In this document: one piece after another, positions 4,488 through 32,354 of the stretch | How positions within the stretch are numbered: the stretch's first letter is position 1 | Layout: each line of letters begins with the position of its first letter | Assembly: GCF_907163085.1 (NCBI RefSeq) | Contig: NZ_CAJQTX010000001.1 | Coordinates: forward strand, 761,001-825,000 | Reading direction: 5' to 3' | From: Candidatus Accumulibacter sp. ACC003 | GTDB taxonomy: Bacteria; Pseudomonadota; Gammaproteobacteria; Burkholderiales; Rhodocyclaceae | DNA length: 64,000 bases | The notes under the pieces: model-generated | The model's input: the letters and a program-made list of their open reading frames with translations, nothing else | The model's database searches: none | Told to the model about the DNA's origin: nothing | Made by a program: the position numbers and the translations under genes

Positions 4488-4805
4488 CCTTGGCGAACGC
4501 CTCACCGGCGATGGCACAAGCGTCGCTTGCTGCCGACCTCGCGCGCCAAAGCGAGATCTGCACCTGACAAGAGCGAACGATCGTCGCCATAATGCCGGCC
4601 GCGCTGGCGATCCTTGCTCGGTGCAGGTGAGCGCAGGCCGTACGCACTGGCCGTGCCGAAAACGGTCGAAAAGAAATCCAGCGCCGACGAGCGCTTGGTC
4701 GATTCCGGCCGCAGGGTGGATTTGTCCTCTCAGGCAACGCACGGGCAATCAAGCAGTTAGTTCTTCCCCCTGGACATCTGCGCCGGAAGTCCGTATAAAT
4801 GGCGC
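4488..4805. other. gap between tpiA terminator and ISAs1-type element
   Basis: About 318 bases with no gene I can support; overlapping short frames on both strands look like GC-driven noise. The left end of the ISAs1-type element must fall in this stretch, but I could not match a clear terminal inverted repeat to the right side near 6570-6600. Confidence 0.4.
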
Positions 4806-5879
4806 ATGGAAAGCGTTCTTGGTGCATTGCGTGTTCGCTTGGTGGGCAAGAGCGAAGAGGCTCGCTATCGGGAGTTGATGGCAGAGCATCACTACTTGGG
4901 CGACCTGGCGAAGATCGGGCACACGCTTTGGTACGTGGCCACCTACGGCGAAAAGTGGACGGCCCTGCTGAGTTTCTCTGCGGCGGCCTGGAAATGCGGC
5001 GTTCGTGACCGCTGGATCGGCTGGGACTATCGGCATCAGTACGATCGCTTGGGCCTGGTCGCCAACAACAGTCGCTTTCTGATCCTTCCCGATTGGCATT
5101 ACCCCAATCTCGGCTCCAAGGTGCTCTCGCTGTGCGAGCGACGGGTCGCCGAGGATTGGCAGGCGCATTTCGGGAAGCCGCTGTTACTGCTGGAGACCTT
5201 TGTGGACCCCTCGCGCTTCCAGGGGACCGTCTATCGCGCCGCGAACTGGACGCCTCTGGGGCTGACGCAAGGCTTTCGCCGCACCCGAGAAGGCTACAGC
5301 GCCCACCCGACGTCGCCCAAAGTTGTCTTTGTTCGCCCCTTGCAGGCGGACGCTCGCGGCCAACTTTCCCGCTCGATACTCAACCCCCGCTATCGCACAG
5401 GAGCGCCCAGGATGATGCTCACCGCCGAACAGATGCGCACGCTTCCCGATTTCTTTGCCGGCATCGCCGACCCGCGGCGCGCGCAAGGAAGGCGTCACCC
5501 CCTTCCTGCCGTTCTGGCCATCGCCACGGCGGCGGTCTTGTGCGGAATGCGGGGCTACAAAGCCATCGCCGGGTGGGCCAAAGACCTCACACCGAAAGCA
5601 CGCGAGCGTTTCCGCTGTCGTCGCGAGAAGGGCGTTTACCGCGTACCCAGCGAGTTCATCATTCGTGACGTCCTGATCCGTGTCGATCCCATGGCGCTCG
5701 ATCAAGCGTGTCAGCAGTGGAACAAGGCCTATGCTCAAGACGACCCCAGTCTGGCGGTCGACGGCAAGACCATGCGCAATGCCCATGACGAGCACGGTCA
5801 GCAAGCACACATCATGAGCGTGGTCGGGCATCAGACCGGCGTGTGTCACACCCAAAAAAAGTCGGCACCTTGCCCGTAA
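4806..5879 (+). CDS. DruA-like domain fused to N-terminal half of ISAs1 transposase (frame 0)
   Basis: A 357-aa frame. Residues 1 to about 195 are a DUF4338/DruA-like domain (EHHYLGD, LLSFSAAAWK, IGWDYRHQYDRLGLVANNSRFLILP, LLETFVDPSRFQGT, YRAANW). Residues from about 200 are the start of an ISAs1 transposase (LPDFFAGIADPRRAQGRRHPL, AVDGKTMRNAH with the first DDE aspartate). The DruA-like domain is homologous to the passenger protein in the IS66 element at 27.3-30.5 kb. Known DruA is a component of the Druantia anti-phage system; its function when fused to transposases is not established as far as I know. After CHTQKK the frame runs out within six codons, at TAA 5877-5879. The rest of the transposase is in the -1 frame. 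Confidence 0.8.
   Translation: MESVLGALRVRLVGKSEEARYRELMAEHHYLGDLAKIGHTLWYVATYGEKWTALLSFSAAAWKCGVRDRWIGWDYRHQYDRLGLVANNSRFLILPDWHYPNLGSKVLSLCERRVAEDWQAHFGKPLLLLETFVDPSRFQGTVYRAANWTPLGLTQGFRRTREGYSAHPTSPKVVFVRPLQADARGQLSRSILNPRYRTGAPRMMLTAEQMRTLPDFFAGIADPRRAQGRRHPLPAVLAIATAAVLCGMRGYKAIAGWAKDLTPKARERFRCRREKGVYRVPSEFIIRDVLIRVDPMALDQACQQWNKAYAQDDPSLAVDGKTMRNAHDEHGQQAHIMSVVGHQTGVCHTQKKSAPCP
5855..5861 (+). promoter_or_regulatory. A AAA AAG slippery heptamer, candidate -1 frameshift site
   Basis: In the upstream frame the codons are CAA AAA AAG, which sets up the canonical X XXY YYZ heptamer A AAA AAG, the same as in E. coli dnaX. A -1 slip continues directly into the downstream transposase frame. 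An A7 homopolymer is also a common indel site, so a simple disabling deletion is an equal explanation. Confidence 0.5.
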
Positions 5880-6592
5880 ATGGCGGGGACGAGCTCAAGC
5901 AGACCAATGAAATCGGGATGTTCATACCCCTGCTCGATGCGATCGATATTCAGGGCAAGGACATCACCGCCGACGCGCTACTGACACAGCGCAAGCTGGC
6001 GACCTACCTGGTGGAGCGCAAGGCGCACTATCACTTCACGGTCAAAGGCAATCAGCCAACACTGCAAGCCGATATCGCGCTCCTCTTCCAGGATCGGAAG
6101 GGGGCAGACTTCGTGGCGGTTTCGCCACCTGACCATGGTCGGATCGAGACTCGGCGTATTTGGTGCAGCAATGCCCTCAACGCCTATCTCGACTTCCCGT
6201 ATGTCGGCCAGGTGTTCTTGATCGAGCGCGAAGTGCTGCACAAGAAGAGCGGCAAGCGGACGCACGAAATCGCTCTCGGGATCACCAGTCGCCCTCCAGA
6301 ACAGGCCAGCCCACAGCAAATCCTCGCCATCAATCGCGGCCATTGGTCGATAGAGAACCGCTGTCACTACGTCATCGACTGGAACTACGACGAGGACCGT
6401 AGCCGTATTCGGACTGGTTACGGACCCGAGAACATGTCACGCCTGCGCCGCTTTGCCGTCGGAATCCTGCACCACTTCTCCGACGGCAAAACCAGCATTT
6501 CCGAAAAAATGCGCCACCTCAACCGCAACATCCGATTGGTCTTCGACTACCTGCGCATGACCAAAAATTCTACAGGCCACGTATCACCTTGA
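5861..6592 (+). CDS. C-terminal half of ISAs1 transposase (-1 frame)
   Basis: This 243-codon stretch continues the transposase after the slip and has its own potential GTG start at 5843. It holds the middle and end of the DDE domain: LKQTNEIGMFIPLLDAIDI, GKDITADALLTQRKLATYLV with the second aspartate, YHFTVKGNQPTL, and the C-terminal RGHWSIENRCHYVIDW with the catalytic glutamate. Without frameshifting or restoration of one base it lacks the first aspartate and would be inactive alone. Either the gene is dead through loss of one A in a homopolymer, or the element uses programmed -1 frameshifting. Confidence 0.8.
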   Translation, partial: VGTLPVNGGDELKQTNEIGMFIPLLDAIDIQGKDITADALLTQRKLATYLVERKAHYHFTVKGNQPTLQADIALLFQDRKGADFVAVSPPDHGRIETRRIWCSNALNAYLDFPYVGQVFLIEREVLHKKSGKRTHEIALGITSRPPEQASPQQILAINRGHWSIENRCHYVIDWNYDEDRSRIRTGYGPENMSRLRRFAVGILHHFSDGKTSISEKMRHLNRNIRLVFDYLRMTKNSTGHVSP

Positions 6593-6719
6593 TCCCGGCA
6601 CGAGAACAAATTTACCGTGATTCCGGCCGATTGCCGATTGACCGCGGTTCACCGACACTCCTATACTCCCGGCGGTGCCGTCGAATTTCCGATCCTCATT
6701 CTTGCAAGGGGAAGCGATC

Positions 6720-13686: not shown

Positions 13687-13982
13687 TTCGTCGTACCGGA
13701 TGACATCGTTGGACTTGTTCTGGTAAGCGGCATGAGGTGGGCTCCGCAGTGGCTTGGCGGGGCTTTCCTTTGTTCAAGATAGTCGGGCTCTGGGAACTGC
13801 TGCCGACGAGTCTCAGACCAGCGCGCAAAAAATAGGTGGTCCGGCCCGCGTCAGGTGTTAACCGACGCGCGTTATAAGCCCGTCGCCAGGCAGCTCGTGA
13901 ACGGAAGCTTTGGAATGCCTTGGCGCTCTACAGCACGACCAGCATCAGCATTTTTTAGGCATCTCTTTACAGGAGTTTGACC

Positions 13983-16900: not shown

Positions 16901-19900
16901 GGGCACGCTGGTCGGCACCCAGCTCACCGACAGCACCGGCAACTACCACTTCACCGGCCTGCTGCCGGGCGACTACATCGTCAAGTTCATCGCCGCCGAC
17001 GGCTCGGTGCTGAGCACCGCCAACGTCGGTAACGACGCTCTCGATTCCGACGCCGGCGCGGGCGGCCTGACCGGCTGCTACACCCTGGCCCCGGGCGAGA
17101 CCAACGACACCGTCGATGCCGGCTACTACCAGAAAGCCAGCCTCGGCGACTACGTCTGGGTCGACGCCAACAATGATGGCCAGCAGAACGATGGTCCGGC
17201 CAGTGGCCTGAACGGTGTCACGGTCAATCTCTACACCGGTGCTGGCGCTTTCGTCAGCAGCACCGTCACCGCCGACAAGGCCGGCCAGCCTGGCTACTAC
17301 CTGTTTGCCGACCTGATCCCGGGTGACTACAAGGTCGAGTTCGTCAAACCGGCGGGTTACGTCTTTGCCCAGCAGGACCAGGGCGCCGACGGCAGCGATA
17401 GCGACGCCAACCCCGGCACAGGCATGACCATCGTCACCACACTGACCTCCGGCGAGAACGACCTCAGCTGGGATGCCGGGCTGGTCAAGCTGGCGGCGCT
17501 CGGCGACCGCGTGTGGATCGACGACAACGCCAACGGCGTGCAGGATGGCGGCGAAGTCGGCAAAGCCGGCGTCACCGTCGAGCTCTACACCTGTCTGAAC
17601 AATGTGCCGGGCATGCTGGTCGGCACCCAGCTCACCGACAGCACCGGCAACTACCACTTCACCGGCCTGCTGCCGGGCGACTACATCGTCAAGTTCATCG
17701 CCGCCGACGGCTCGGTGCTGAGCACCGCCAACGTCGGTAACGACGCTCTCGATTCCGACGCCGGCGCGGGCGGCCTGACCGGCTGCTACACCCTGGCCCC
17801 GGGCGAGACCAACGACACCGTCGATGCCGGCTACTACCAGAAAGCCAGCCTCGGCGACTACGTCTGGGTCGACGCCAACAATGATGGCCAGCAGAACGAT
17901 GGTCCGGCCAGTGGCCTGAACGGTGTCACGGTCAATCTCTACACCGGTGCTGGCGCTTTCGTCAGCAGCACCGTCACCGCCGACAAGGCCGGCCAGCCTG
18001 GCTACTACCTGTTTGCCGACCTGATCCCGGGTGACTACAAGGTCGAGTTCGTCAAACCGGCGGGTTACGTCTTTGCCCAGCAGGACCAGGGCGCCGACGG
18101 CAGCGATAGCGACGCCAACCCCGGCACAGGCATGACCATCGTCACCACGCTGACCTCCGGCGAGAACGACCTCAGCTGGGATGCCGGGCTGGTCAAGCTG
18201 GCGGCACTCGGCGACCGCGTGTGGATCGACGACAACGCCAACGGCGTGCAGGATGGCGGCGAAGTCGGCAAAGCCGGCGTCACCGTCGAGCTCTACACCT
18301 GTCTGAACAATGTGCCGGGCACGCTGGTCGGCACCCAGCTCACCGACAGCACCGGCAACTACCACTTCACCGGCCTGCTGCCGGGCGACTACATCGTCAA
18401 GTTCATCGCCGCCGACGGCTCGGTGCTGAGCACCGCCAACGTCGGTAACGACGCTCTCGACTCCGACGCTGGCGCGGGCGGCCTGACCGGCTGCTACACC
18501 CTGGCCCCGGGCGAGACCAACGACACCGTCGATGCCGGTTACTATGAGAAAGCCAGCCTGGGCGACTACGTTTGGGTCGACGCCAACAATAACGGCCAGC
18601 AGGACGACGCTGCGAGCAATGGCCTGAACGGTGTCACGGTGAATTTGTACACGGGTGCCGGCGTTTTCGTCAGCACCACCGTCACCACCGACAAGGCCGG
18701 TCAGCCTGGCTACTACCTCTTTGCCGACCTGATCCCGGGCGACTACAAGGTTGAGTTCGTCAAACCGGCGGGTTACGTCTTTGCCCAGCAGGACCAGGGC
18801 GCCGACGGCAGCGATAGCGACGCCAACCCCGGCACAGGCATGACCATCGTCACCACACTGACCTCCGGCGAGAACGACCTCAGCTGGGATGCCGGGCTGG
18901 TGCAACTGAAGGCCGGTATCGACATCGAGAAATACGTCCGCGGTGAGTACGTGGACGAGGGTGCAGGCGGAGGTGAAGGGCTGACCCCAGGTTTCTGGAA
19001 GACACACTCCAGCTATGGGCCGGCGCCTCTTGCCGGTTGGCCGGAAACGGGCTACGGCCCGAATGACAGCTACGAGACCATCTTCGGTGTAGACGTGCCG
19101 GGCTCACCGAGCTTGTTGGAAGCGCTAGGCTCCGGCGGTGGTGGTGTATATGCCTTGATGCGCCACTCCACCGCGGCGCTGCTGAACGCCGCAAACGGTA
19201 ATGTCGATTACGCCTACACCAAGGCAGAGATCATTGCCATGACGCAGGCCGCTTTAGACCCGGGTGGCGATATTAGCGGCACCAAAGATCTATTTGCGGC
19301 ACAAAATGAACTGGGTGCCGACCTCAGCACGCCGGCAGTCGGTGGCACGCTGGTGATAACGCCAGACTACGACGCGGACTTTCCCACGGGACCCATGATT
19401 CCCGTGGGTGGTACGGCGGTGTTCACCTACGTGGTGACGAACACTGGCGAGGTCGCGCTGAGCAACGTGCTGGTAAGCGACGACCGTATCCAACACCTGA
19501 CCTTCCTCGGCGGTGATAGCAACGGCGATCATCAACTGGACGTCAACGAGACCTGGACCTACAGCGCATCGGAAATGGTCGTTGCTAGTGGCCAATATGT
19601 CAATACCGGTACGGTCTTTGGCACCGATGCGAACACAGGCCAGACGGTATCTGATGCCGACAAGGCGCATTACATCACCTCGGTTCTGACCGCCAGCCTT
19701 GGCGATCGGGTGTGGCTTGACGCCAACGCCAACGGCGTTCAGGACGTCGGCGAGAACGGCCTCGGTGGTGTTGTCGTCAAGCTCTTGGACGCTAATGGCG
19801 GAGTTCTTGCTACTGACACCACGGACGGCGACGGAAACTACCTGTTCGATAACCTGGTTCCCGGCGACTACAAGCTCGAATTCGTCAAACCGGCTGGCTA

Positions 19901-22900
19901 CGCTTTCACCCAGCGGGACATCGGCGCCGACGCCAGCGACAGCGACGCCAACGCTGCCGGGATGACCATCGTCACCACGCTGACCAGTGGTGAGATCGAC
20001 CTCAGCTGGGATGCCGGCCTGGTCAAGCTGAAGGCCGGTATCGACATCGAGAAAACCACGAACGGCCCGAGCAACAGCAACCCGGTCAAGCCTGACTACG
20101 ATAACGAAGACGCCGCCGACGGCGCTGGTGTTGCCATCCTGACCCCAGGTTCGGTGGTCACCTGGACTTATCAGGTCACCAATACCGGCAACACGACGTT
20201 CGCGAAAAGCGATATTGCAATCGTGGACGATAATGGCACGCCGGCCAATGCCGCCGACGACCTCTCGGTGGCCAACGGCAAGATCAGCTATGTATCGGGT
20301 GACGTGGGCAACGACAATCTCCTGTCGCCGGGCGAAGCGTGGCTGTACCAGGCCACGGGAACGGTCCAGAACCTGACCAGCACGGGCGCCGACAGCACCT
20401 TCAACTTCAACGGCAGCAGTAGCACGGACGGCACCGATGGCAACATCCGGACCTTCACCGCCGGCTCGATATCGGTTCATGCCAGCGCGTTCAGCCGCGA
20501 CAAAGCCACTGGCGACTGGTCGCAGGCCTGGCTCGGCAGCTACGGCGGCGGGCTGGGAGTGACTGACAACAGCGAAGGCAGCGGCGGCAACAACCAGCAC
20601 ACGGTGGACAACACCGGTGGCCGGGACAATTACGTGCTGTTCGAGTTTGATCAGAACGTGGTCGTCGATTCAGCCTATCTGGGCTACGTCGTCAACGACA
20701 GCGACATCCAGGTGTGGATCGGCACGCGCACCAATGCCTACGCCAATCACGATGCCTTGCTCAGCGACGCCGACCTCGCAGCGCTCGGCTTCACGGAACT
20801 TAATTCGACGACCTTGAGCAGCGCACGGCTGGCCGATTTCAATAACGGCAATGTCTCGGGCAACGTCCTGGTGATCGCCGCCGACACGACCGACAAGACG
20901 CCGGAGGACATGTTCAAAATCCAGAAACTGACCGTTGCGCAGCTGCAGTCAGGTCTCTACGAGAACAATGCGACGGTGACCGCTCCCGGCGCGCCCGGCG
21001 ATTCCGACCTCGGCCACTACAAGAATCCGGTGGTTCCGGCAACGCCGAAAATCGACATCGAGAAGACCACCAACGGCCCGAGCAACAGCAACCCGATCAA
21101 GCCGGACTTCGACAACGAGGACGCCGCAGACGGCGCGGGCGTCGCCATCCTGACGGCGGGTTCGTCGGTCACCTGGACCTATCAGGTCAGCAACACCGGC
21201 AACACGACCTTCGCCAGGAGCGATATTGCGATCGTCGACGACAACGGTACGCCCTCGAACGGTGCGGACGACCTCTCGGTGGCCAACGGCAAGATCAAGT
21301 ACCTGTCCGGCGACGTCGGCAACGACAATCTCCTGTCGCCGGGCGAAGCTTGGCTGTATCAAGCCACGGGAACCGTCCAGAACCTGAGCACGATGGGTGC
21401 CGCCAGCACCTTCGACCTCAACGGCAGCAGCAGCACCAACGGCACCGACGGCAACGTCCGGACCTTCACCGCCGACTCGATATCGGTTCATGCCAGTGCC
21501 TTCAGCCGCGACAAGACCACCGGCGACTGGTCGCAGGCCTGGCTCGGCAGCTACGGCGGCGGGCTGGGAGTGACTGACAACAGCGAAGGCAGCGGTGGCA
21601 ACAACCAGCACACGGTGGACAACACCGGTGGGCGCGACAATTACGTGCTGTTCGAGTTCGATCAGAACGTCGTCGTCGATTCGGCCTACCTGGGCTACGT
21701 CGTCAACGACAGCGACATCCAGGTGTGGATCGGCACGCGCGCCAACGCCTACGCCAATCACGATGCCTTGCTCAGCGACGCCGACCTCGTAGCGCTCGGC
21801 TTCACGGAACTCAATTCGACGACCTTGAGTAGCGCACGGCTGGCCGATTTCAATAACGGCAATGTCTCGGGCAACGTCCTGGTGATCGCCGCCGACACCA
21901 CCGACAAGACGCCGGAGGACATGTTCAAGATCCAGAAACTGACCGTTGCGCAGCTGCAGTCAGGCATCTACGAGAACAAGGCGACGGTGAGCGCTCCCGG
22001 CGCGCTCAGCGATTCCGACCTCGGCCACTACAAGAATGCGGCGCTGGGTAGCCTTGGCGATCGCGTCTGGTTCGACGCCAACGCCAACGGCATCCAGGAC
22101 GCCGGCGAAACCGGGCTTGCCGGAGTTACGGTCAAGCTGCTCAGCGGCGCCGGAGCTGTCCTGGCAACGCAACAGACCGACGGCGGCGGCAACTACCTGT
22201 TCAGCGGCCTCAATCCGGGCGATTACAAGCTACAGGTGGTGGCTCCGAGCGGCTACTTCGTGTCGCCGAAGGATCAGGGTGGCAACGACGCCAAAGACTC
22301 GGACTTCGATTCGTCTACCGGCAAGACCGTTCTCAAGACGCTCAACAGCGGCGAGAACGACCTCAGCTGGGACGCCGGACTGTTCAAGAAAGCGTCGGTC
22401 GGCGACAAGGTGTGGGACGACATGAACCACAACAATATCCAGGACGCCAGCGAACCCGGTATTGGCGGCGTCAAGGTGAGCTTGATGGATGCGACCGGAA
22501 AGAACGTCCTGGCGACGACCACAACCAACAGCGACGGCAACTACCTCTTCAGCAACCTCGACGCCGGTACCTACGTGCTGCAATTCGACAAGACGAACGT
22601 CCAGTATTACCAGTACAAGCAGTGGAACAACATGAGCACCTGGAAGTGGGCGGTCAAGGACGCCGGCAGCAACGACGCCATCGATTCGGACGTGGCGGGT
22701 GATGCCAAGGTGACGACCAGCGTCAGCAAGACCAGCGCCTTTACGCTGACGCTCGGTCAGAACGATATGACCCGCGACGCCGGCATCACGCCGATCGTCA
22801 TCGACCTCGACGGTAACGGTATCCAGACGCTCAGCCGCGCCAACTCGGCTGGCAGCTTCGATCTGTTCGGCAACGGCAGCGCAGTGCAGTCGGGTTGGAT

Positions 22901-23570
22901 TTCGGGCGGTGAAGGCTTCCTGGCGGTCGACCACAACGGCAACGGCCAGATCGACGACATCAGCGAGCTGTTTGGCGGTACGGCCAAGGGTGCAGGCTTC
23001 GCGCAACTGGCGAGCTACGACAGTAACGGTGATGGCCTGGTCAATGCCGCCGATAGTGGCTTTGCCGATCTGTTGATCTGGCGCGACGCCAACGGCAACC
23101 ACCAGACCGACGCCGGCGAGTTGCTGACGCTGGCCGAAGCCGGTGTGGCGTCGCTCGACGTTGGCCATAGCGAGCTGCCGTTCCTCGACCGACAGGGTAA
23201 CGTTCACCTCGAACGCAGCCTGGCGACGATGGCCGACGGTCGCGCGGCGGACATGACCGACGTCTATTTCAACGTCTCGGCCAACGATGCGGCTGCCGCC
23301 GGCGTCGTTCTGCCCGAGTTCGCCGATCTGCTGTTTGGCGGCACTCTTGTCGATCTCTCGGCATGGCGTACGACCGACGGTAATGAGCAGGCCGCTGCCA
23401 CGCTGAGCGGTTTGAGCGTTGACGGTCTGGAAAACGCCTTCCTGGCCGATAGCGGCGTGTCGTTTGAGCACGGCGCCGCGATCTCCGGGGCCAGCGTGCC
23501 AGACCTGCCCGACGGCTTGTTCGCGGCCGCGGCCAACGATGCGCTCGACTCGGGATGGTTGTTCGGCTAG
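13983..23570 (+). CDS. giant SdrD-B-repeat surface protein, probable type I secretion substrate
   Basis: A 3195-aa protein with no N-terminal signal peptide. Layout: unique N-terminal region (1-220); one SdrD/SpaA-like B domain (220-343); five tandem 236-aa units, each one A plus one B module (344-1523); a sixth A module (1524-1641); a TPGFWKTH segment and a DUF11-like domain (about 1642-1903); another B-type domain; two long 337-residue repeats (about 2020-2686); two more B-type domains; and Ca-binding loops DLDGNG, DHNGNGQIDD, DSNGDG, DANGNH (2937-3075) before an acidic tail ending LDSGWLFG. The PIVIDLDGNG...GEGFLAVDHNGNG block and acidic end are typical of RTX/T1SS adhesins. AGGAG seven bases before ATG 13983 sets the start (the in-frame TTG at 13977 is rejected). 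No ABC/HlyD/TolC exporter lies nearby. A role in adhesion or floc matrix is an inference. Confidence 0.9.
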   Translation: MPAYTPPSLNIKVTAPGLLGLPSYLDTTIISSTQPFVYPTNSVFDSWCVNRNAPISVPGTYGAYAYSSYELGLLSVTIPGIGNFAGLDNVNWLLNNLKPSANLYSDTINQKLYTGIPYYNVTGVSGDFTYGDVQQAISSLLGQGTPTGVLIGSWDPERVAAIVGRATVDGNGFVPDVTDSFSDNDKIAVVLDTFLDSNNNGVRDNSELSHQPLVITVQSAALGDFVWDDLNGNGIQDEVGTGIAGVTVNLVRDLNGDGDFLDPNEKLATTTTDASGFYKFIGLTPGLSYQVEFVKPVAYISFTTADTTVDTADSDANALGVTPIVILAPGEYNRTIDAGLIKPASLGDYVWVDANNDGQQNDGPASGLNGVTVNLYTGAGVFVSTTVTADKAGQPGYYLFADLIPGDYKVEFVKPAGYVFAQQDQGADGSDSDANPGTGMTIVTTLTSGENDLSWDAGLVKLAALGDRVWIDDNANGVQDGGEVGKAGVTVELYTCLNNAPGALVGTQLTDSTGNYHFTGLLPGDYIVKFIAADGSVLSTANVGNDALDSDAGAGGLTGCYTLAPGETNDTVDAGYYQKASLGDYVWVDANNDGQQNDGPTSGLNGVTVNLYTGAGAFVSSTVTADKAGQPGYYLFADLIPGDYKVEFVKPAGYVFAQQDQGADGSDSDANPGTGMTIVTTLTSGENDLSWDAGLVKLAALGDRVWIDDNANGVQDSGEVGKAGVTVELYTCLNNAPGALVDTQLTDSTGNYHFTGLLPGDYIVKFIAADGSVLSTANVGNDALDSDAGAGGLTGCYTLAPGETNDTVDAGYYQKASLGDYVWVDANNDGQQNDGPASGLNGVTVNLYTGAGAFVSSTVTADKAGQPGYYLFADLIPGDYKVEFVKPAGYVFAQQDQGADGSDSDANPGTGMTIVTTLTSGENDLSWDAGLVKLAALGDRVWIDDNANGVQDGGEVGKAGVTVELYTCLNNVPGTLVGTQLTDSTGNYHFTGLLPGDYIVKFIAADGSVLSTANVGNDALDSDAGAGGLTGCYTLAPGETNDTVDAGYYQKASLGDYVWVDANNDGQQNDGPASGLNGVTVNLYTGAGAFVSSTVTADKAGQPGYYLFADLIPGDYKVEFVKPAGYVFAQQDQGADGSDSDANPGTGMTIVTTLTSGENDLSWDAGLVKLAALGDRVWIDDNANGVQDGGEVGKAGVTVELYTCLNNVPGMLVGTQLTDSTGNYHFTGLLPGDYIVKFIAADGSVLSTANVGNDALDSDAGAGGLTGCYTLAPGETNDTVDAGYYQKASLGDYVWVDANNDGQQNDGPASGLNGVTVNLYTGAGAFVSSTVTADKAGQPGYYLFADLIPGDYKVEFVKPAGYVFAQQDQGADGSDSDANPGTGMTIVTTLTSGENDLSWDAGLVKLAALGDRVWIDDNANGVQDGGEVGKAGVTVELYTCLNNVPGTLVGTQLTDSTGNYHFTGLLPGDYIVKFIAADGSVLSTANVGNDALDSDAGAGGLTGCYTLAPGETNDTVDAGYYEKASLGDYVWVDANNNGQQDDAASNGLNGVTVNLYTGAGVFVSTTVTTDKAGQPGYYLFADLIPGDYKVEFVKPAGYVFAQQDQGADGSDSDANPGTGMTIVTTLTSGENDLSWDAGLVQLKAGIDIEKYVRGEYVDEGAGGGEGLTPGFWKTHSSYGPAPLAGWPETGYGPNDSYETIFGVDVPGSPSLLEALGSGGGGVYALMRHSTAALLNAANGNVDYAYTKAEIIAMTQAALDPGGDISGTKDLFAAQNELGADLSTPAVGGTLVITPDYDADFPTGPMIPVGGTAVFTYVVTNTGEVALSNVLVSDDRIQHLTFLGGDSNGDHQLDVNETWTYSASEMVVASGQYVNTGTVFGTDANTGQTVSDADKAHYITSVLTASLGDRVWLDANANGVQDVGENGLGGVVVKLLDANGGVLATDTTDGDGNYLFDNLVPGDYKLEFVKPAGYAFTQRDIGADASDSDANAAGMTIVTTLTSGEIDLSWDAGLVKLKAGIDIEKTTNGPSNSNPVKPDYDNEDAADGAGVAILTPGSVVTWTYQVTNTGNTTFAKSDIAIVDDNGTPANAADDLSVANGKISYVSGDVGNDNLLSPGEAWLYQATGTVQNLTSTGADSTFNFNGSSSTDGTDGNIRTFTAGSISVHASAFSRDKATGDWSQAWLGSYGGGLGVTDNSEGSGGNNQHTVDNTGGRDNYVLFEFDQNVVVDSAYLGYVVNDSDIQVWIGTRTNAYANHDALLSDADLAALGFTELNSTTLSSARLADFNNGNVSGNVLVIAADTTDKTPEDMFKIQKLTVAQLQSGLYENNATVTAPGAPGDSDLGHYKNPVVPATPKIDIEKTTNGPSNSNPIKPDFDNEDAADGAGVAILTAGSSVTWTYQVSNTGNTTFARSDIAIVDDNGTPSNGADDLSVANGKIKYLSGDVGNDNLLSPGEAWLYQATGTVQNLSTMGAASTFDLNGSSSTNGTDGNVRTFTADSISVHASAFSRDKTTGDWSQAWLGSYGGGLGVTDNSEGSGGNNQHTVDNTGGRDNYVLFEFDQNVVVDSAYLGYVVNDSDIQVWIGTRANAYANHDALLSDADLVALGFTELNSTTLSSARLADFNNGNVSGNVLVIAADTTDKTPEDMFKIQKLTVAQLQSGIYENKATVSAPGALSDSDLGHYKNAALGSLGDRVWFDANANGIQDAGETGLAGVTVKLLSGAGAVLATQQTDGGGNYLFSGLNPGDYKLQVVAPSGYFVSPKDQGGNDAKDSDFDSSTGKTVLKTLNSGENDLSWDAGLFKKASVGDKVWDDMNHNNIQDASEPGIGGVKVSLMDATGKNVLATTTTNSDGNYLFSNLDAGTYVLQFDKTNVQYYQYKQWNNMSTWKWAVKDAGSNDAIDSDVAGDAKVTTSVSKTSAFTLTLGQNDMTRDAGITPIVIDLDGNGIQTLSRANSAGSFDLFGNGSAVQSGWISGGEGFLAVDHNGNGQIDDISELFGGTAKGAGFAQLASYDSNGDGLVNAADSGFADLLIWRDANGNHQTDAGELLTLAEAGVASLDVGHSELPFLDRQGNVHLERSLATMADGRAADMTDVYFNVSANDAAAAGVVLPEFADLLFGGTLVDLSAWRTTDGNEQAAATLSGLSVDGLENAFLADSGVSFEHGAAISGASVPDLPDGLFAAAANDALDSGWLFG
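15012..18551 (+). repeat. five tandem 708-bp repeats, nearly identical
   Basis: Units start at 15012, 15720, 16428, 17136 and 17844, each exactly 708 bp (236 codons); a diverged A half-unit continues at 18552. Copies differ at only a few bases, such as GALVG/GALVD/GTLVG/GMLVG in module B and GPASG/GPTSG in module A. Such uniformity points to recent expansion or gene conversion and predicts length variation by slippage or recombination. Short-read assemblies could miscount the copies. Confidence 0.97.
20040..22040 (+). repeat. two tandem ~1.0-kb repeats in the adhesin gene
   Basis: Copy 1 runs 20040-21050 and copy 2 from 21051 to about 22040. Each begins IDIEKTTNGPSNSNP and contains a DUF11-like stretch, then a module with SVHASAFSRD, GLGVTDNSEG and DNYVLFEFDQNVVVD that resembles domains of PEP-CTERM exported proteins. 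The copies are highly similar but clearly more diverged than the 708-bp units, so they are older. Confidence 0.9.
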
Positions 23571-25982: not shown

Positions 25983-27212
25983 TCACTTTGCGGCTTGCCG
26001 CTTGCGCTGTCGTGAGTGTGGCGCCAGTGGGCCAGCCACGGCGCCACGCGCGTGCGACGCCAGGCGATTTACCAGGCCGAGAAGCTGCGGCAAAGTCTGC
26101 CTTTCGAGGTCCAGGTGCTGCTGGACGTCGCGGCGGGCCTGCACCCGCAAGGCTTGTATCCGCTGGGGGTCGTCAAGGACCGAAATAATCGCTTCGGCGA
26201 GCGCCGCTGGCGAGAAGAAATCGACCAGCAGTCCGTTGCGCCCGGCCTTGACGACCTCGCGAACGGGCGCTGTATCCGAGGCGATCACCGGGCAACCGCA
26301 GGACATCGCTTCAAGCAGTGACCACGATACGACAAACGGGTAGGTGAGGTAGACGTGCGCGCTGGAAAGCCGCAAGACGTCGATGAACGTGGCGTAGGGC
26401 ACTTTGCCCAGGAAGTGCACCCGTCGGCCGTCGAGGCTGTCGCCGAGTTCCCTGCAATAGGCGTCGCGGTAGCATTCGCCAGCCGGCAGGCGACGACCAT
26501 AGCTGACTTCGTCGCCACCGACGATCAATACCTGCGCATTCGGTCGCGCCGCCAGCACGGCCGGCAGGGCGCGCATGAAGGTATGAAAACCGCGGTACGG
26601 TTCGAGGTTGCGGGCCACGTAAGTGACGACCTCGGCGCCCGAACGCAACGTTCCGCGGCCATCGGGCAAGACGAAGTCGAGCACCTCGCCGGGGCAGACC
26701 AGGTCGGTCTGGACGCCGTCGTGGATTACCTGGATGCGCGAGTGAAACGCTTGCGGGTACTGGTCACGCTGCCAGCGCGTCGGGCTCAGACCAGCATCGG
26801 CCGCCGCCAGGCTGATCAGCTGCGTAGCGTTGCGGATACGCAGCCGGCACTGATCGTCGAAGGAGGTCGGAAACTCCGGGTCAAAACCCATATCCGACCC
26901 CTGCGCGCGGTAAAAGAATTCGAGATAGACGAGTAACGGGGATTCGGGGTAAACGTCCTTGAGAAACAGCGCTTCGCCCCAGCCGGGATGCGCGCAAATC
27001 ACATCGGGAACGAAACCGGTCTTGCGCAGGGCCATCGCCACCCGGAGCACCGCCTGGCCGCGGCGGATCGCCGCCTCGGAACTGTGCAGGTAATGATGCG
27101 TTTTCTTCGCCGCTCCCGGTGGCTCCGGATACGCCAGCAAGCGGATGCGTGGATGCAGAGCGCGTGCCCGTTGGAGGTTCACCTCCTCACCGATGGCGAC
27201 TACTTCGTTGTC
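25983..27212 (-). pseudogene. glycosyltransferase family 4, C-terminal 409 aa (gene split by IS66 element)
   Basis: This is the larger part of a GT4 gene. It starts DNEVVAIGEEVNLQRARALHP and carries the GT-B donor domain with TYVARNLEPYRGFHTFMRAL, VGGDEVSYG, and the nucleotide-sugar motif SWSLLEAMSCGCPVIASD followed by NGLLVDFFSPAAL. The missing first 25 codons lie at 32280-32354, on the far side of a transposon with 8-bp target duplications. Joining the two fragments restores one frame of 434 aa. An in-frame TTG at 27236, inside the IS end, could give a truncated product lacking the first beta strand of the acceptor domain; I judge it non-functional. The substrate is unknown; surface polysaccharide is likely. 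Confidence 0.93.
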
Positions 27213-27220
27213 GAGCGAGT
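27213..27220. repeat. 8-bp target-site duplication, left copy (GAGCGAGT)
   Basis: GAGCGAGT abuts the left end of the IS66-type element and is repeated exactly at 32280-32287. Eight bases is the duplication length known for IS66-family elements. Confidence 0.95.
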
Positions 27221-27269
27221 GTAAGTATTCGGCCAACCCGTAGTGAGCCAGCGCCGTTGGCGAGGCCGG

Positions 27270-27393
27270 TTAGCGGCAGAGGACTGATCGGAAGGCTCTG
27301 TGAAGGGGATAGAGCCAGATATCCTTGATCGGGAGGATCGACTTGCGGGTGGGGCACTTCTTGCCTCGGCCGGCGGTTTGGCCGACCTTGATC
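27270..27393 (-). pseudogene. DruA-like passenger gene, 3' fragment
   Basis: This is the last part of the DUF4338/DruA-like gene, beyond the inner IS. Joined to the 5' fragment through the CAGTT duplication it reads AANWIKVGQTAGRGKK, then KSILPIKDIWLYPLHR, ending at TAA 27270-27272. Both the AANW...GRGK motif and the IWLYPL ending are standard for the family. Confidence 0.9.
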
Positions 27394-27398
27394 CAGTT

Positions 27399-29774
27399 CA
27401 GATTTCCTGATCTCGGAGGAAACCGGGTTGGCACTTCAGACAAGAGTGAAGGTCATTCTTGCCCCGGTTTCCGGATGCGGAAAATCTTGCAGGGTGAGTT
27501 CCTCGAGGAGCGCGGCGATAGCGCGATCATGAGCTGGGCTGGCCATCCGGTGAATTTTGATGGTCAGGGTGTTGGCTAGCGCGTTCGGTTCGATGTCAGC
27601 GGAAGAAACGAACAATTCGCGAATGAGCGCACGTGCGTCGTCCTCCTTCTTCAAGTGGCGGCGCAATAGCGCCACCATGGCGGTCTCGGCCCGGTAGGCG
27701 ACCATTTTCACGGTATCGCAGAGCATCTTGTTCAGCGGCGGCAGTTGGGTCGGTCGCTCGGTCTCGGGCAGACTGTCGATCGTCACCTTTCGGGGGCTTG
27801 CCTTGCGCGCCGCGCAAAGTCGCTTGAGCTCCTCCTGAACGGCCTGCAGTGCTTCGACAGACTCGGCGTTTTTCTGGATTTCGCCGCCGTCGTTCAAGGC
27901 CGTCCTGGCGATTGCGGCCTGCAGTTTTCTTTCGCTCTGGCGGGTTTGCCTGACGGCCTTGTCGAGTTCCCGCCAGCGGGGGTTAACGACCTGGTGAGTG
28001 CCGGGAAGAGATTCGTCTCCGTACTCGATAAGCCCATCAATATCATAATGTTCCATCATGTACGCGAAGTAGTTTTCCTGGCACCAACGGGCGAACATCC
28101 GCCCAGCGATGGTGGTGTTTCCGAGTTGCCGGGCGGTCGTGATCACGGCTGTTTGATGTCCCGTCTGGGTCAGCCGACGAACTTCGCTCACGGCCAGGCT
28201 GCCATCGCCTGTGCCGAGTCGGGTTTCGCGCATGGCGAGTTTCATCCCGGTGCTGCCGCCTGCCGGCAGATGGACTTCCTGTTCCTGAAACACCTCTTCG
28301 GACCAGAGGTCCTTGACGTTCTTGCGGTAGGTCAGTGCGCCGATGCGCTGTTTCCAGAGTCTGCCGAGGAGACTCTGGGTGGCCCCTTCCCGATCGAAGA
28401 CCATGACAAACCGGTGCAGGGTCGGGTCGGCGTCCAGTTCGGCCGGCGTCGGCTGTCCCGGGACAATCTCCAGCAGTTGGGGGACGATGTCCTTGAGCAG
28501 GGTCTCGGCGAGTCCGTCATTGAGCGGCTGCGAAACCACAAAGAACGGGCGACCCAGGGCATCGTTAACCCAGTAGTCGGTGGTGCCCCGCAGGCACAGG
28601 CGTTCGCGCGAGACGTAGCGCTTCGACAGCCTGGCCTGCTCGCCGTGATACACCCGAACATGACCATCGACATACAGGTAACCCGCTTCTTCTGGCTCAC
28701 TTTCCATCCAGAGCTTCGCGAGATCCCGCATCCAGGCTGCCGGGTCACCCGTCTTGGCCAGCAGATGGACCTTTTCCCGCAGGGTGCGGACTTCCGGTAC
28801 CCGGTCCAGGCCGATGACTTTGCCGAGTTCTCCGGGCGAGGTTTGTCGCAGATGTTCCGGCCGCTTGATTCGCCCCAGGGCCATGAAGCCGAGGACGAGA
28901 AGGATGTGCAAGGCGCTGTAGAATCCCCGGGGCAGCTTGAGATGGCGATCCAGGCCGGTCAGTAGCCCGTTCGCGCACAAGGCCGGCAAGCCGGCCAACA
29001 GCCCCCCCATCGCCACATCGTGGCTCGCTTCGAAGCGCGTCGTCGCACCGGTCGCCAATCCCAGCGCCGTTTGGATCCGCTCGTCGGCGCGCGTGCAGGC
29101 GGTGCCCATCCCCGCGGCGGCTTCCGCATCCGCCCGGCTGCGCTCACTCTTGGTGCTCGCCGCTTCCAACTCCCCTGCCTCTTGCGGCAAGGCGGCCAAC
29201 TGCGGCACGCCCTGGCGCCGGATCGCCTTGCGCAGCGTCGACTCCTGGACGCCCACCTGCCGTGCCACTTCGGCAGGACGCTTTCCCTCGCTCAACAGCC
29301 GCGCGCATTCGGCACTCTTGTCCGGCGTCATGATCCGCGGCCGGCTCGCCGCCGCCGGTCGAAAGAAAGACGATGGCCCGGCTTTGCGGCTTTGTCCCAC
29401 CCAGTTCATCAGCGTGCGGTGCGGGATGCACAGCGGTGGCCTTTCCAGTTCGACCGCCTTGACGTGCCCGTTCTCCATCAGGCTGGTCAGAGCGAACCTG
29501 CGGCCAGCGTCGTCTCCTACGGGGTGCGAGAAGTAATTGTCTCCCCCAACAAAGTAGATCGCTTGGCCATCCTTCTCCAGAATCGCCAACCCTTCTCCCA
29601 CTTTCTGCGCACCATCCGGAAACCCTGGAAGCCACGATTGCCTCAACGTCTGCTCCTCCTTGCACTCCTAGCGAAGCTTGGTTTATGCCATAAGAAAATC
29701 ATGGCCGTCAAAATAAAGTGCCACGTGCAATTCCGGAATTCTACCTACATTCCCGGCCGGGATCAGGAAATCTG
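27399..29774 (-). mobile_element. 2376-bp insertion sequence, copy 1 (inside the IS66 element)
   Basis: Terminal inverted repeats CAGATTTCCTGATCtCGG (27399 side) and CAGATTTCCTGATCcCGG (29774 side, minus strand) match at 17 of 18 positions. The flanking 5-bp duplication is CAGTT at 27394-27398 and 29775-29779. One transposase gene fills the element. A second copy of identical length is at 61073-63448 in the opposite orientation. The IS family is not one I can name with certainty. Confidence 0.95.
27436..29646 (-). CDS. DDE transposase of the 2376-bp IS, copy 1
   Basis: A 736-aa transposase. The N-terminal part has a helix-turn-helix-like stretch (ECARLLSEGKRPAEVARQVG). A central RNase H-like core follows with GYLYVDGHVRVYHG (first Asp), RFVMVFDREGATQSLLG (second Asp) and RWCQENYFAYMMEHYDIDG (candidate Glu). 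A coiled-coil region near 570-640 comes after it (QSERKLQAAIART, EALQAVQEELKRLC). Translation starts at TTG behind AAGGAGGA. It differs from copy 2 at two residues (SLPETERP, ALLEELTL). The fold suggests the IS4/IS1634-like DDE superfamily, but the length is unusual and the family is left open. The frame is intact and probably active. Confidence 0.85.
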   Translation of the reverse strand: MRQSWLPGFPDGAQKVGEGLAILEKDGQAIYFVGGDNYFSHPVGDDAGRRFALTSLMENGHVKAVELERPPLCIPHRTLMNWVGQSRKAGPSSFFRPAAASRPRIMTPDKSAECARLLSEGKRPAEVARQVGVQESTLRKAIRRQGVPQLAALPQEAGELEAASTKSERSRADAEAAAGMGTACTRADERIQTALGLATGATTRFEASHDVAMGGLLAGLPALCANGLLTGLDRHLKLPRGFYSALHILLVLGFMALGRIKRPEHLRQTSPGELGKVIGLDRVPEVRTLREKVHLLAKTGDPAAWMRDLAKLWMESEPEEAGYLYVDGHVRVYHGEQARLSKRYVSRERLCLRGTTDYWVNDALGRPFFVVSQPLNDGLAETLLKDIVPQLLEIVPGQPTPAELDADPTLHRFVMVFDREGATQSLLGRLWKQRIGALTYRKNVKDLWSEEVFQEQEVHLPAGGSTGMKLAMRETRLGTGDGSLAVSEVRRLTQTGHQTAVITTARQLGNTTIAGRMFARWCQENYFAYMMEHYDIDGLIEYGDESLPGTHQVVNPRWRELDKAVRQTRQSERKLQAAIARTALNDGGEIQKNAESVEALQAVQEELKRLCAARKASPRKVTIDSLPETERPTQLPPLNKMLCDTVKMVAYRAETAMVALLRRHLKKEDDARALIRELFVSSADIEPNALANTLTIKIHRMASPAHDRAIAALLEELTLQDFPHPETGARMTFTLV

Positions 29775-30508
29775 CAGTTGGCGGCCTGGTAGCAGGTGCC
29801 GCGATGGCGGGGCGTCTCGACGAAGGTTTCGAGTAGTACGGGGCGGTAGCCGTAGCGCGCCAGCCAGTCCTTGGGCAATTGCCGCTGCATAAGCGAGAGG
29901 ATCTTGGAGGCCAGGCCCTTGCACTGGATCCAGGGCAGGATCAGAAAGCGGGCATTGTTCACCACCAGTTGCAGGTTCCTTTGTCGCTGCTCATCGTGCC
30001 AACCGATGAATTGCTCGCGCGCGGCGAGTTTCCAGGCGCTGGCGCCGAAGCTGAGCAAGGCGACCAGGGTCTCGCCGGCGAAGACGAAGTAGCGGCTCTG
30101 ACTGCCCGCCATGGGCGTGTGGCCGAGATAGTGGTAGCGGGCGATGTACTCGTTCCACAGACGCGAGTTCGCCGAACCGACGACCTGATGCAGACGCAGC
30201 GGCGGCAGTTCATGCACCGGCTGGGTGAGCAACGGTTGTGGATCGGTGGCGTGAGTAGGCAGATACTCGGGTTGGCGAGGAGCGGCCCGTCGTGCCGCCG
30301 GCAGGGTGAGCAGGCCGTCGGCCTGCATACGCAGCATGGCCACCCGGCAGGTCATATCCTTCAGCTCGCCATTGGGCTTACGCCAGTCGAAGAGCTCACA
30401 CACCTGGCGCGACAGTTGCGCGCGGCTGCTGCCAGGATGGGCTTCGATCAGGCGGCAGAGGGCCTGCAGTTCGTCGTCGGTAAAGTGACGCCCGCAATAA
30501 GGCTTCAC
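29775..30508 (-). pseudogene. DruA-like (DUF4338) passenger gene of the IS66 element, 5' fragment
   Basis: This fragment encodes about 244 residues of a 285-aa protein. Residues 1-75 form a winged-helix-like N-terminal part (FTDDELQALCRLIEAHPGSSRAQLSRQVCELF, then DMTCRVAMLRMQADGLLTLP). The DUF4338/DruA core follows (RYHYLGH, LLSFGASAWK, FIGW, LQLVVNNARFLILP, LASKILSL, LLETFVETPRHRGTCYQAAN). The ATG at 30508 overlaps the tnpC stop as ATGA, so the two are translationally coupled. The inner IS cuts it after AAN; the frame then runs 11 codons into the IS to a stop at 29741. Its core resembles the N-terminal domain of the ISAs1-type protein at 4.8 kb. Confidence 0.9.
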
Positions 30509-31728
30509 GAGCTATCGATGGGACGGCTCTGATCGACCGGGATGCCACGCATCTGAGCCAGTCGATCGGTCGCCATCGCCCAGGGCAGAAAGGCACTCAA
30601 GTCCGTCGGCGGCAGGTTGCCGTTGGCGGCGCAGGCCTCCAGATACGCCGTCAGCCAGGTGCGCGGGTTGATTCCCCACAAGCGCAGCGTCAGCAGCAAG
30701 CTGAACATCGTCGCGGCGAGTGCGCCGGACCAGAGACTGCCCGACCCATAGAAGTTCTTGCGTGCGACCACCGGCGTGCGCTGTGCGCGCTCGGCGGCAT
30801 TATTGTCCATCGCCACCTCGGGGCGGTCGACAAAGACGGTCAGGCCGGACCAATGTTTGCGCATGCTTCGCAGCACCTTGCTCGCCGGCATTTTGAGCGC
30901 CGGGTTCGCCAGTTCGCTTTCCCGTTGACTGGCCATTTGCGTGATCGCCTGCCGCAAGGCGCGGTCGCGTTCGGCCCACTGTACTGGGTCGCTACGGACT
31001 TCCAGGCGCCGTCCATTCAAGTGGTAGAGCTGAGCGATCTGCTCGACCCAGGCCAGTGCCCAGTCCGCGAGCTCCGGATGGGCGTTGGCCAGTTCCAGGA
31101 AATCACGCCGCTGATGTGCCCAGCAGAAAGCCAGAATGAAGTGGTCAAGGACTCGCGCGAGCTTCTTGTAGGCCGAATAGCGATCACAGATGATGACTCC
31201 TCCGGCGCTACCGGAGAGCTCCCGGATCGGCACCGCCGCCGAGCGGCTCGGGTCGAGCACGAAGTGGATGACCGATGGGCCGTGGAACACCCAGAAATAC
31301 CAGCGATGTCCGACCTTCCCTTCGGTCTCGGCAAAGACCCGCCAGCGGGTCTCGTCTGCGTGCCACTGTTTCTCGCTGCGTAGTTGGCCAAGCAGTGCTT
31401 CTTCAAGCGGCTCGAACAGCGGTGCCAAGGCACGCAGTCCGCCGGCCACCGTTCCTGCCGAGAGCGTCAGTCCGTGGTCGGACAAGTCTCGCAGAAGCCG
31501 ATGCGTCGGCTGGCCGTACAAGAACTTCGACAGCAGCAGGTGCACCCAGATCGACACGCCGTACTTTCCACGCGGGATCAATCGTGCCGGCGGTGGCGCG
31601 GTCAGAATACCCCGCGCGCCCGAACACTGACAGGTCCGCCGGTAGCGCCGCCGGCAGATCTTCCGGCGGTAGGCCTTGACCTCGATCTCGAGGACTTCAC
31701 TGTCTTCCGTGCCGGGAAAGTCGACGTA
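30505..31728 (-). pseudogene. IS66 transposase TnpC, central and C-terminal part
   Basis: This part carries the IS66 transposase from DFPGTEDSEVLEIEVKAYRR to the end. DDE residues are present: WHADETRWRVF, ICDRYSAYKKL and DNNAAERAQRTPVVARKNF. The C-terminal IS66 tail GNLPPTDLSAFLPW is there too. The open frame extends upstream to 31938, but that stretch is out-of-frame translation of the N-terminal part. The zinc-finger segment usually found just before DFPGTEDSE is missing. The stop overlaps the DruA-like start by ATGA. Confidence 0.88.
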
Positions 31729-31739
31729 GCCCAGACTTC

Positions 31740-32227
31740 CGCCCGTGACCCGCTGCTCCCGGTTGCTGACCTCGAGCTCGCGACGATTTTTGGTCCGCCG
31801 CCGGGTTCTTCTCGGCTCCCGAAGAGCGTTCTGACTTGCGACCAAACAGGCGTTTTTGCAGATCGCGGATCCGGCCCTGGGCCTGCTCGAGCTCGCTACG
31901 CAAGGCCGCCTCACGCGCCGCCGCTTGCTCCGCCGCACGCGCCATTTCCACCCGATGAGCGGCCTCCGATTCCGCCAAACGGACCAGCGCTTGCCGATGT
32001 TGGCTGCGCCAGAAGTTGGCCTCCCAACGGAGCTTGATTTCCTGCTCCTTGGTCAACGTCACCAACACCTCGGCGAACGGCGCCACTTGGCGGTGACTTG
32101 CCGCCGATCCTCCGCAGATAATGTCCGTAGCCGTGCCCATGCGCCGCATGGTGCCGGATTTCCGCTGCTGTGTCCAGTCCAGATCTCCGGGCTGCCCGCC
32201 AATCGCTGACGGAAGCTCGCCCACCAA
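31740..32227 (-). pseudogene. IS66 transposase TnpC, N-terminal coiled-coil part
   Basis: The frame holds the leucine-zipper-like coiled coil of TnpC (LTKEQEIKLRWEANFWRSQH, VEMARAAEQAAAREAALRSE, RIRDLQKRLFGRKSERS) and the conserved RGQQPGAAGHGR motif. It then runs out of frame. In intact relatives GHGR is followed by about 30 residues with two CxxC zinc pairs before the FPGTEDSE motif. Here the two motifs are only a few codons apart and in different frames, which indicates a deletion with frameshift. A TTG at 32227 opens the frame; the true start may be further in. Confidence 0.8.
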
Positions 32228-32243
32228 AAAAACCGGGGCTACG

Positions 32244-32279
32244 GGTTCACCGAATACTTACGGTTCACCGAATACTTAC
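32244..32279. repeat. tandemly duplicated IS66 terminal repeat (2 x 18 bp)
   Basis: GGTTCACCGAATACTTAC occurs twice back to back (32244-32261 and 32262-32279). Each copy is the outer 18 bases of the IS end in inverted orientation. The target duplication abuts the outer copy, so the extra end moved with the element or arose during its insertion. Confidence 0.9.
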
Positions 32280-32354
32280 GAGCGAGTTGGCCAGCGCTGG
32301 CGCCAGGTACTTGTATTGTCCGGGAAAATTCTGGTGTACAAAGAGGATTCGCAT
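32280..32354 (-). pseudogene. glycosyltransferase family 4, N-terminal 25 codons
   Basis: From ATG at 32354 the frame reads MRILFVHQNFPGQYKYLAPA and then LANSL, the standard start of this GT4 subgroup (Rossmann strand plus the HQNFPGQ loop). The last codon falls in the 8-bp duplication 32280-32287, after which the IS66 end begins. It joins in frame to DNEVVAIGEE at 27212. The promoter should lie in the 143-base divergent gap shared with tadA. Confidence 0.93.

Follow-up and report, generated by a model that had tools for sequence, protein, structure and literature searches.

The window (the whole 64 kb stretch of DNA that was analysed) contains a GT4 glycosyltransferase gene that has been interrupted by an IS66-type transposon carrying tnpC and druA, and within the druA of this transposon there is a second insertion sequence (IS). 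The features of the locus are these.

25983..27212, minus strand: 3' part of the GT4 glycosyltransferase gene (409 aa and stop), with PF12000 and PF00534; relatives are continuous across the site
27213..27220: left copy of the 8 bp target duplication GAGCGAGT, read directly in the sequence
27221..32279, minus strand: IS66-type two-gene transposon (tnpC and druA), split by the inner IS; its druA is one of 32 of this type in the genome
27221..27243, plus strand: left terminal inverted repeat of the IS66-type element, from the sequence
27270..27393, minus strand: 3' piece of druA, ending at TAA, from alignment
27394..27398: left copy of the 5 bp target duplication CAGTT of the inner IS, from the sequence and the duplications of other copies
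27399..29774, minus strand: inner IS, 2376 bp, with a transposase ORF at 27436-29646 (736 aa, Transposase_29)
29775..29779: right copy of CAGTT, on the same evidence as the left
29775..30508, minus strand: 5' piece of druA, starting at a GTG, with a 4 nt overlap with the tnpC stop (PF14236, E 1.8e-36)
30505..31736, minus strand: remainder of tnpC (IS66 DDE domain; PF03050, NF033517), out of frame with the start
31737..32149, minus strand: first frame of tnpC, up to a 68 bp gap, from the intact 566 aa tnpC elsewhere and alignment across the gap
32244..32279, minus strand: right end, with the 18 bp terminal repeat doubled in tandem (32244-32261 and 32262-32279), from comparison of ends
32280..32287: right copy of GAGCGAGT, read directly
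32280..32354, minus strand: 5' part of the glycosyltransferase gene (25 aa), from the sequence; relatives are continuous across the site

Both sets of target duplications that the first-pass annotation had reported are present at these positions, and GAGCGAGT is found only twice in the window when both strands are checked. Of the two right ends of the IS66-type element, the inner one agrees with the left end at 21 of 23 positions, and the ends of the inner IS match each other at 17 of 18. The source genome (5.39 Mb in 13 contigs) and the genus (28 genomes) were searched. Exact 8 bp duplications flank 29 of the 31 IS66-DruA elements tested in this genome, window copy included, which argues that the flanks in the window are not there by chance; L082 and the second copy of a tandem pair in L096 do not have them, and among the 31 there are shared target sites, one common to L090 and L105 and one within the inner IS for L080, L087, and L102. 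The nesting and the boundaries of both elements are therefore plain at this locus.

When the 25-residue and 409-residue pieces of the glycosyltransferase were used as separate queries against the 27 other genomes of the genus, 13 close loci (L018-L028, L030, and L045, close being at least 69% identity over the 409-residue part) were found in 12 of the genomes. The pieces are at exactly the spacing of an uninterrupted gene in all 13, running on from LANSL to DNEVV, as they should if removal of the IS66-type element restores an intact 434 aa GT4 enzyme as had been proposed. Locus L029 is also close, its contig beginning within the gene, and in six homologues that are further removed (L031-L036) the alignment is partial and the spacing different. 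Both neighbours, a cyclic-nucleotide-binding gene and a tadA-like deaminase gene, are present in 8 of the 13 close loci, which indicates that this is the same genomic site as in the window. The duplications, the uninterrupted loci, and the shared site together bear out nested transposition into the gene, which is whole in 12 relatives and interrupted here. What is left is a 417 aa ORF that has a TTG start within the IS end and is without the first 25 residues of the enzyme, and loss of function is likely. As to the change in surface glycan that the first-pass annotation thought possible, the genes directly adjoining the glycosyltransferase are not glycan genes.

A search of this genome with PF14236 finds 32 druA of the IS66 type, of which 30 have 286 codons, one has 327, and the last is the interrupted copy in the window. 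The 30 open frames of 286 codons agree with the earlier reconstruction, in which removing the inner IS restores a 285 aa DruA. Complete elements are mostly 2716 or 2728 bp with the ends GTAAGTATTCGG, and the commonest form has a tnpC of 566 aa and a druA of 285 aa that starts with GTG, the two genes sharing 4 nt at the tnpC stop. TnpC has the IS66 DDE domain (PF03050, E 1.6e-59; NF033517, E 7e-85, above cut-off), and the element has 8 bp duplications and inverted repeats starting GTAA, as is typical of the IS66 family. Canonical IS66 elements have tnpA and tnpB in addition, and there is a tnpC-only group that does not. In the 2716 bp element the long non-overlapping ORFs that are evident are tnpC and druA only, with no tnpA or tnpB, and on its gene content the outer element is filed with the tnpC-only kind, which we take to be the ISBst12-like elements, rather than with canonical IS66. 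It has TnpC, GTAA ends, and the 8 bp duplication in common with these; in the place of tnpA and tnpB there is druA, overlapping the tnpC stop.

The copy in the window is not a typical one. Its tnpC begins with an ATG at 32147-32149, and at 31736/31737 it lacks 68 bp that are present in 29 of the 29 other elements compared, so that tnpC is split between two frames and the copy looks to be no longer autonomous; it could presumably be moved only with TnpC from other copies. The 18 bp right terminal repeat, twice present here, occurs once in the other elements tested. The copy is also a mosaic: its ends are type-B-like (98.3% over the right 525 bp), and the core between them has 100% identity with a type A copy across 1957 bp. 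A single event producing both the mosaic switch and the deletion was considered and rejected, as the switch lies at approximately 390-463 of the right part and the deletion at 525.

The transposase of the inner IS matches PF21804 (E 1.4e-152), and 5 bp duplications flank all 16 of the distinct complete copies among the fetched stretches. Four of these 16 copies contain an IS66-DruA element, so that nesting between the two goes both ways in this genome. In three of the four (L080, L087, and L102) the IS66-DruA element is at the same internal site, and the outer 5 bp duplications differ, the likeliest reading of which is that these composites moved as whole units, although this site may instead be an insertion hot spot. 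The order of insertion had been taken to be fixed by the nesting. As nested composites probably move as units, the order cannot be read in this way; what follows from the nesting is an insertion of the inner IS into an IS66-type element, at a time that may be before or after the interruption of the glycosyltransferase. Both elements are high-copy in the genome, and nesting between them is to be expected on that account.

DruA takes its name from the Druantia defence system, and PMC7251935 lists it among proteins without a known function. The first-pass annotation had treated druA as incidental to the insertion, yet it is an integral part of the transposon, and its linkage to transposons extends well beyond the element in the window. 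In this genome druA lies inside duplication-flanked boundaries in three families, these being the IS66-type, an ISAs1-like, and one named here DruA324+Tnp442. The ISAs1-like family is also represented in the window.

4711..6620, plus strand: second DruA transposon, ISAs1-like, flanked on both sides by TTCCGGCC

In this element the DruA domain and DDE_Tnp_1_assoc are in one ORF, which is followed by an overlapping DDE ORF; the match of the ISAs1 model to the protein is below the model cut-off. There are 8 copies of the family with both ends, with an exact 8 bp duplication in 7 and 7 of 8 positions matching in the eighth, and in the DruA324+Tnp442 family, where a DruA frame of 324 codons is beside a 442 aa transposase, all 7 copies with both anchors have a 9 bp duplication (duplications in both families being read by eye from printed flanks). 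The genome also has Tn5-like proteins of 741 aa, plus one frame of 778, with the DruA domain in front of parts that match the IS4-type transposase model NF033590 and Tnp_DNA_bind. DruA is thus fused with transposase parts of either the Tn5/IS4-like or the ISAs1-like kind. These fused proteins share their transposase domains with the known Tn5/IS4 and ISAs1 transposases and differ in having an N-terminal DruA domain in addition, an arrangement of which we know of no published description.

Similar linkage is seen elsewhere. The 80 best matches to the IS66-type DruA among at least 508 relatives, in which IS66 is over-represented because of the query, are on genome contigs from many bacterial phyla and one archaeon. 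A recognised transposase lies within 2.5 kb of DruA in 64 of these best 80 loci, on the same strand in all 64, and within 100 bp by aligned ends in 53 of the 64. The neighbours of 10 of the other 16 were scanned, of which four are transposase-like (L189, L202, L180, and L171) and six gave none. Such neighbour scans add DUF4277, UPF0236, and DDE_Tnp_1 proteins to those found beside DruA, the first two of which we take to be transposase domains. The neighbour in L200 seems to be the same as that in L202, judging by its printed start. Inverted repeats scoring at least 15 bracket both genes in 20 of 46 loci from the best 80, against none of 138 shuffled flank pairs; a tandem-repeat scan at score 200 found none. 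One of the loci from the genus (L048, genome G022) is identical to L146 over all its 2159 bases.

Comparison of the two types of druA in the genome (dN 0.028, dS 0.166, no stops) shows the codon signature of purifying selection. When DruA and TnpC are each compared with the family in the window, DruA is the more conserved in 34 of 35 IS66 loci among the best 80 of at least 508, these being 35 of the 37 strong IS66-type loci (L174 and L182 left out) with some of the TnpC pieces short. A quick maximum-likelihood tree was made from 69 of the best 80 loci, 10 others, and three defence-type sequences, with some of the IS66 labels coming from weak matches. There are 10 changes of transposase class among its 79 transposon-type rows, and 11 with the defence-type rows, against a possible minimum of 8 and an average of 27 after shuffling; for the Tn5-like class, at least 3 changes are required by starred branches. 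Transposase class is therefore strongly clustered on this tree, and exchange would be only occasional. The tree suggests that DruA is modular, and has been taken up by several transposase classes.

In the AlphaFold2 model of DruA (pLDDT 90.5, pTM 0.75) a helical N-terminal part is followed by a C-terminal GNAT domain, and this predicted GNAT fold is well supported. Against the PDB the first fold match is Mom of phage Mu (8bv8, E 3.2e-6; TM-score normalised by target 0.56), followed by FeeM (9.4e-6) and RimI (2.7e-5); there are 114 matches at E ≤0.001, and the 50 listed are nearly all acyltransferases by title. In a viral structure library the first match is an uncharacterised phage protein and the second a phage Mom. 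The N-terminal domain on its own had no fold match at E 0.001 (best E 0.27), and the best match to DruA in a search of PDB sequences was at E 0.48. DUF4338 is named as a GNAT domain in PMC10853773, and PMC7824862 describes Mom enzymes as GNATs acylating adenine N6, some of them fused to nucleases.

Fold matches to Mom and RimI lie close together, and it is the profile comparisons that separate them. The hhalign match of DruA to 12 diverse Mom proteins has a P of 3.9e-10 over 163 columns, with 3.5e-8 for another DruA set, whereas DruA against RimI gives 0.13 and RimI against Mom 0.14. The similarity to Mom thus goes beyond that to generic GNATs, as represented by the single other GNAT family compared, RimI (16 of 20 fetched loci). 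The Mom set (A4) comprises Mu, a single near relative, and 10 chosen among the best 40 of 284 records; it was used in place of a shallow set of near-identical Mom proteins (A3), which gave no match to DruA (probability 1.7%). The Mom-like PHROG 1384 is matched by 50 of 55 DruA at E ≤0.01.

The residues of Mom that pair with DruA in the hhalign alignment are largely kept. Among 55 DruA sequences (A2) these are H126 (55), Y127 (52), S201 (55), E/D231 (52), Y240 (54), and N244 (51), and their counterparts in the 12 Mom proteins are H48 (12), Y49 (12), S114 (10, with T in 2), D139 (12), Y149 (12), and N153 (12). The 55 come from the best 80 of at least 508, with 15 of the 80 loci never listed and with L170 (stop), L211-L214, L216, L219, L221, L222, and L224 dropped. 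The H-Y, S, Y, and N of Mom are therefore conserved in DruA, and the D is mostly replaced by E, there being 40 E, 12 D, and 3 Q at the D139 position. In the inactive Mom of structure 8bv8 it is S114 that has been replaced. Kinship between DruA and Mom, with active-site residues kept, is well supported by these alignments. As the kinship is at the profile level, and BLAST of DruA against 50,697 phage records found no match at E 0.001, DruA is called Mom-like here and not a Mom. It has the GNAT domain and the matching H-Y, S, acidic, Y, and N residues in common with the Mom of phage Mu, itself a transposing phage. It differs in its extra N-terminal domain of approximately 95 aa, in favouring E over D at the position of D139, and in its location in small ISs, adjoining or fused with a transposase.

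The DruA of Druantia is of the same Pfam family (PF14236; DruA1 in PADLOC), and the profiles of the defence-type and transposon proteins are related (P 3.1e-9 over 130 columns). The PADLOC DruA model matches transposon DruA over a short stretch only (best E 9.4e-7, with no match for 3 of 7 proteins), and the match to the protein in the window, which has the Pfam domain (E 1.8e-36), is a partial one of approximately 50 residues (E 2.3e-4) and not full-length. In contrast, three defence-type DruA, of the five full-length ones in the class sample described below, score from 1e-196 to 3.5e-92, and a fusion 4.6e-116. An assignment of the transposon DruA to Druantia was rejected on this difference. 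No other Druantia gene is present among the long genes of the element. Defence-type DruA are approximately 400 aa and are on a separate branch of the tree, and two of the three scanned adjoin a HerA-like gene; their profile has no direct match to that of Mom (P 0.042).

The explanation that accounts best for these findings overall, to which we would give about an even chance, is that the locus is a nested pair made of an IS66-druA transposon and another IS, in which DruA is a working Mom-like GNAT that modifies DNA for its transposon. The IS66-type tnpC-druA transposon would have entered the GT4 gene, generating the 8 bp duplication, and the Transposase_29-type IS would have entered druA, generating the 5 bp duplication, either before or after this jump. 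DruA may then use an acyl-CoA-type cofactor to modify a base, adenine if it acts as Mom does, in DNA near the transposon, since a Mom-like enzyme that adjoins a transposase, or is joined to it in one protein, points to modification of DNA at the element or close by. In the fused proteins this could take place in the synaptic complex. Such a mark on the ends might tune or gate transposition, much as Dam methylation tunes the transposition of IS10 and Tn5. Alternatively, a more general mark might shield incoming element DNA from restriction, as Mom shields the DNA of Mu. The fusion of DruA with transposases favours a mark that gates transposition over one that protects against restriction. Both DNA as the substrate and the purpose of the mark are inferred.

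The GNAT fold, and the presence of DruA in one protein with transposases, would also be consistent with DruA being a transposon-borne protein acetyltransferase that acts on the transposase or on a host factor and so regulates transposition, and most GNATs do acylate small molecules or proteins. This is unlikely given that the profile kinship is to Mom (P 3.9e-10) and not RimI (0.13), RimI being the single acetyltransferase family compared. That DruA has lost all catalysis and assists the transposase by binding DNA or as a structural partner is distinctly unlikely, as the active-site-like residues are invariant or nearly so in the 55 DruA from the best 80; the same fusions would suit it, however, and the helical N-terminal domain looks HTH-like, its weak and non-significant fold matches including several DNA-binding proteins.

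The name of the Pfam family and the relatedness of the transposon and defence-type proteins could suggest that DruA is anti-phage cargo of the Druantia kind, benefiting the host. As the element has no long genes other than tnpC and druA, PADLOC matches are short where the defence-type scores are strong, and DruA is also fused with transposases, this seems highly improbable. Least of all do we expect that DruA is a neutral hitch-hiker in ordinary IS decay, two common ISs having become nested by chance. High copy number and the reverse nesting elsewhere in the genome agree with such decay, and it is the right reading of the nesting itself, but not of DruA, which shows purifying selection and a higher conservation than tnpC, and which goes with several classes of transposase. 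If DruA is instead a Mom-like modifier, then it may be that it represents a transposon branch of the Mom-type DNA modifiers, spread over at least five transposase classes (the IS66, Tn5/IS4, ISAs1, DUF4277, and UPF0236 types), in which ISs mark DNA to control their movement, and from which the DruA of Druantia is a derived and domesticated side branch. This wider proposal is tentative, and we think it more doubtful than probable.

No paper joining DUF4338 with IS66, or DruA with a transposase, was found in the literature covered, subscription papers being mostly outside its scope, and 19 papers there mention DruA and Druantia along with transposons; the parts of PMC11090510 and PMC6174562 that were consulted add nothing on this question. 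Its location inside transposons, together with the link to Mom, gives a direct biochemical hypothesis, that of base modification, and if this is true then simple insertion sequences encode a DNA-modifying enzyme.

In a sample from across the class, PF14236 is present at E ≤1e-10 in 16 of 369 genomes, the source genome of the window included. Twenty of the 24 matches from other genomes were fetched, of which 11 have a transposase beside or fused with DruA (that of L233 being a weak match of 54 residues), 5 are full-length defence-type, and 4 are other (L235, L242, L244, and L245). Caution is needed, given these proportions, where defence surveys count isolated PF14236 matches as Druantia. Among plasmids, DruA matches are present in 2 of 72,556 records at E 1e-10, one of which overlies a feature named 'ISAs1 family transposase'.

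The genome of Candidatus Accumulibacter sp. ACC003 (5.39 Mb) carries 56 matches to PF14236, the DruA family. At three loci in this genome (L080, L087, L102) the IS66-type transposon with druA (IS66-DruA) is inserted at one common site within the inner IS, the 2376 bp Transposase_29-type element, while the outer duplications differ; the inserted copies represent two length types, one of 2716 bp and the other of 2728 bp. This pattern would indicate either that composites have moved and copies have exchanged sequence, or that the site is a hot spot for insertion.

In L096 (G000:C1:243200-254700, same genome) there is a tandem pair of IS66-DruA copies of differing length types, with 7 bp between them, the second lacking a clean 8 bp duplication. 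The copies in L090 and L105 have the same printed flanks and the same target duplication, CCATGGGC, and that in L105 is broken up by approximately 3.1 kb.

Two further features are present in the window:

61073-63448, inner IS present in full a second time, target duplication AAGTA
13977-23570, 3197 aa ORF made of long near-identical repeats, adjoining the interrupted glycosyltransferase locus

The repeats of this ORF are presumably of the SdrB-like kind.

Outside this genome, the gene order on plasmid pTs485 of Candidatus Thiodictyon syntrophicum (L317) is DUF4338, integrase, IS91 transposase, IS4-family transposase, which is perhaps a Tn5-like DruA element interrupted by IS91. In the class-wide sample, residues 57-688 of a 1241 aa protein (L244, G095:C66) match the 675-position profile of DruA1, the PADLOC defence-type model, and SspF/DndF models match beyond this stretch. 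This make-up agrees with the fusion to DndF that PMC10853773 describes.
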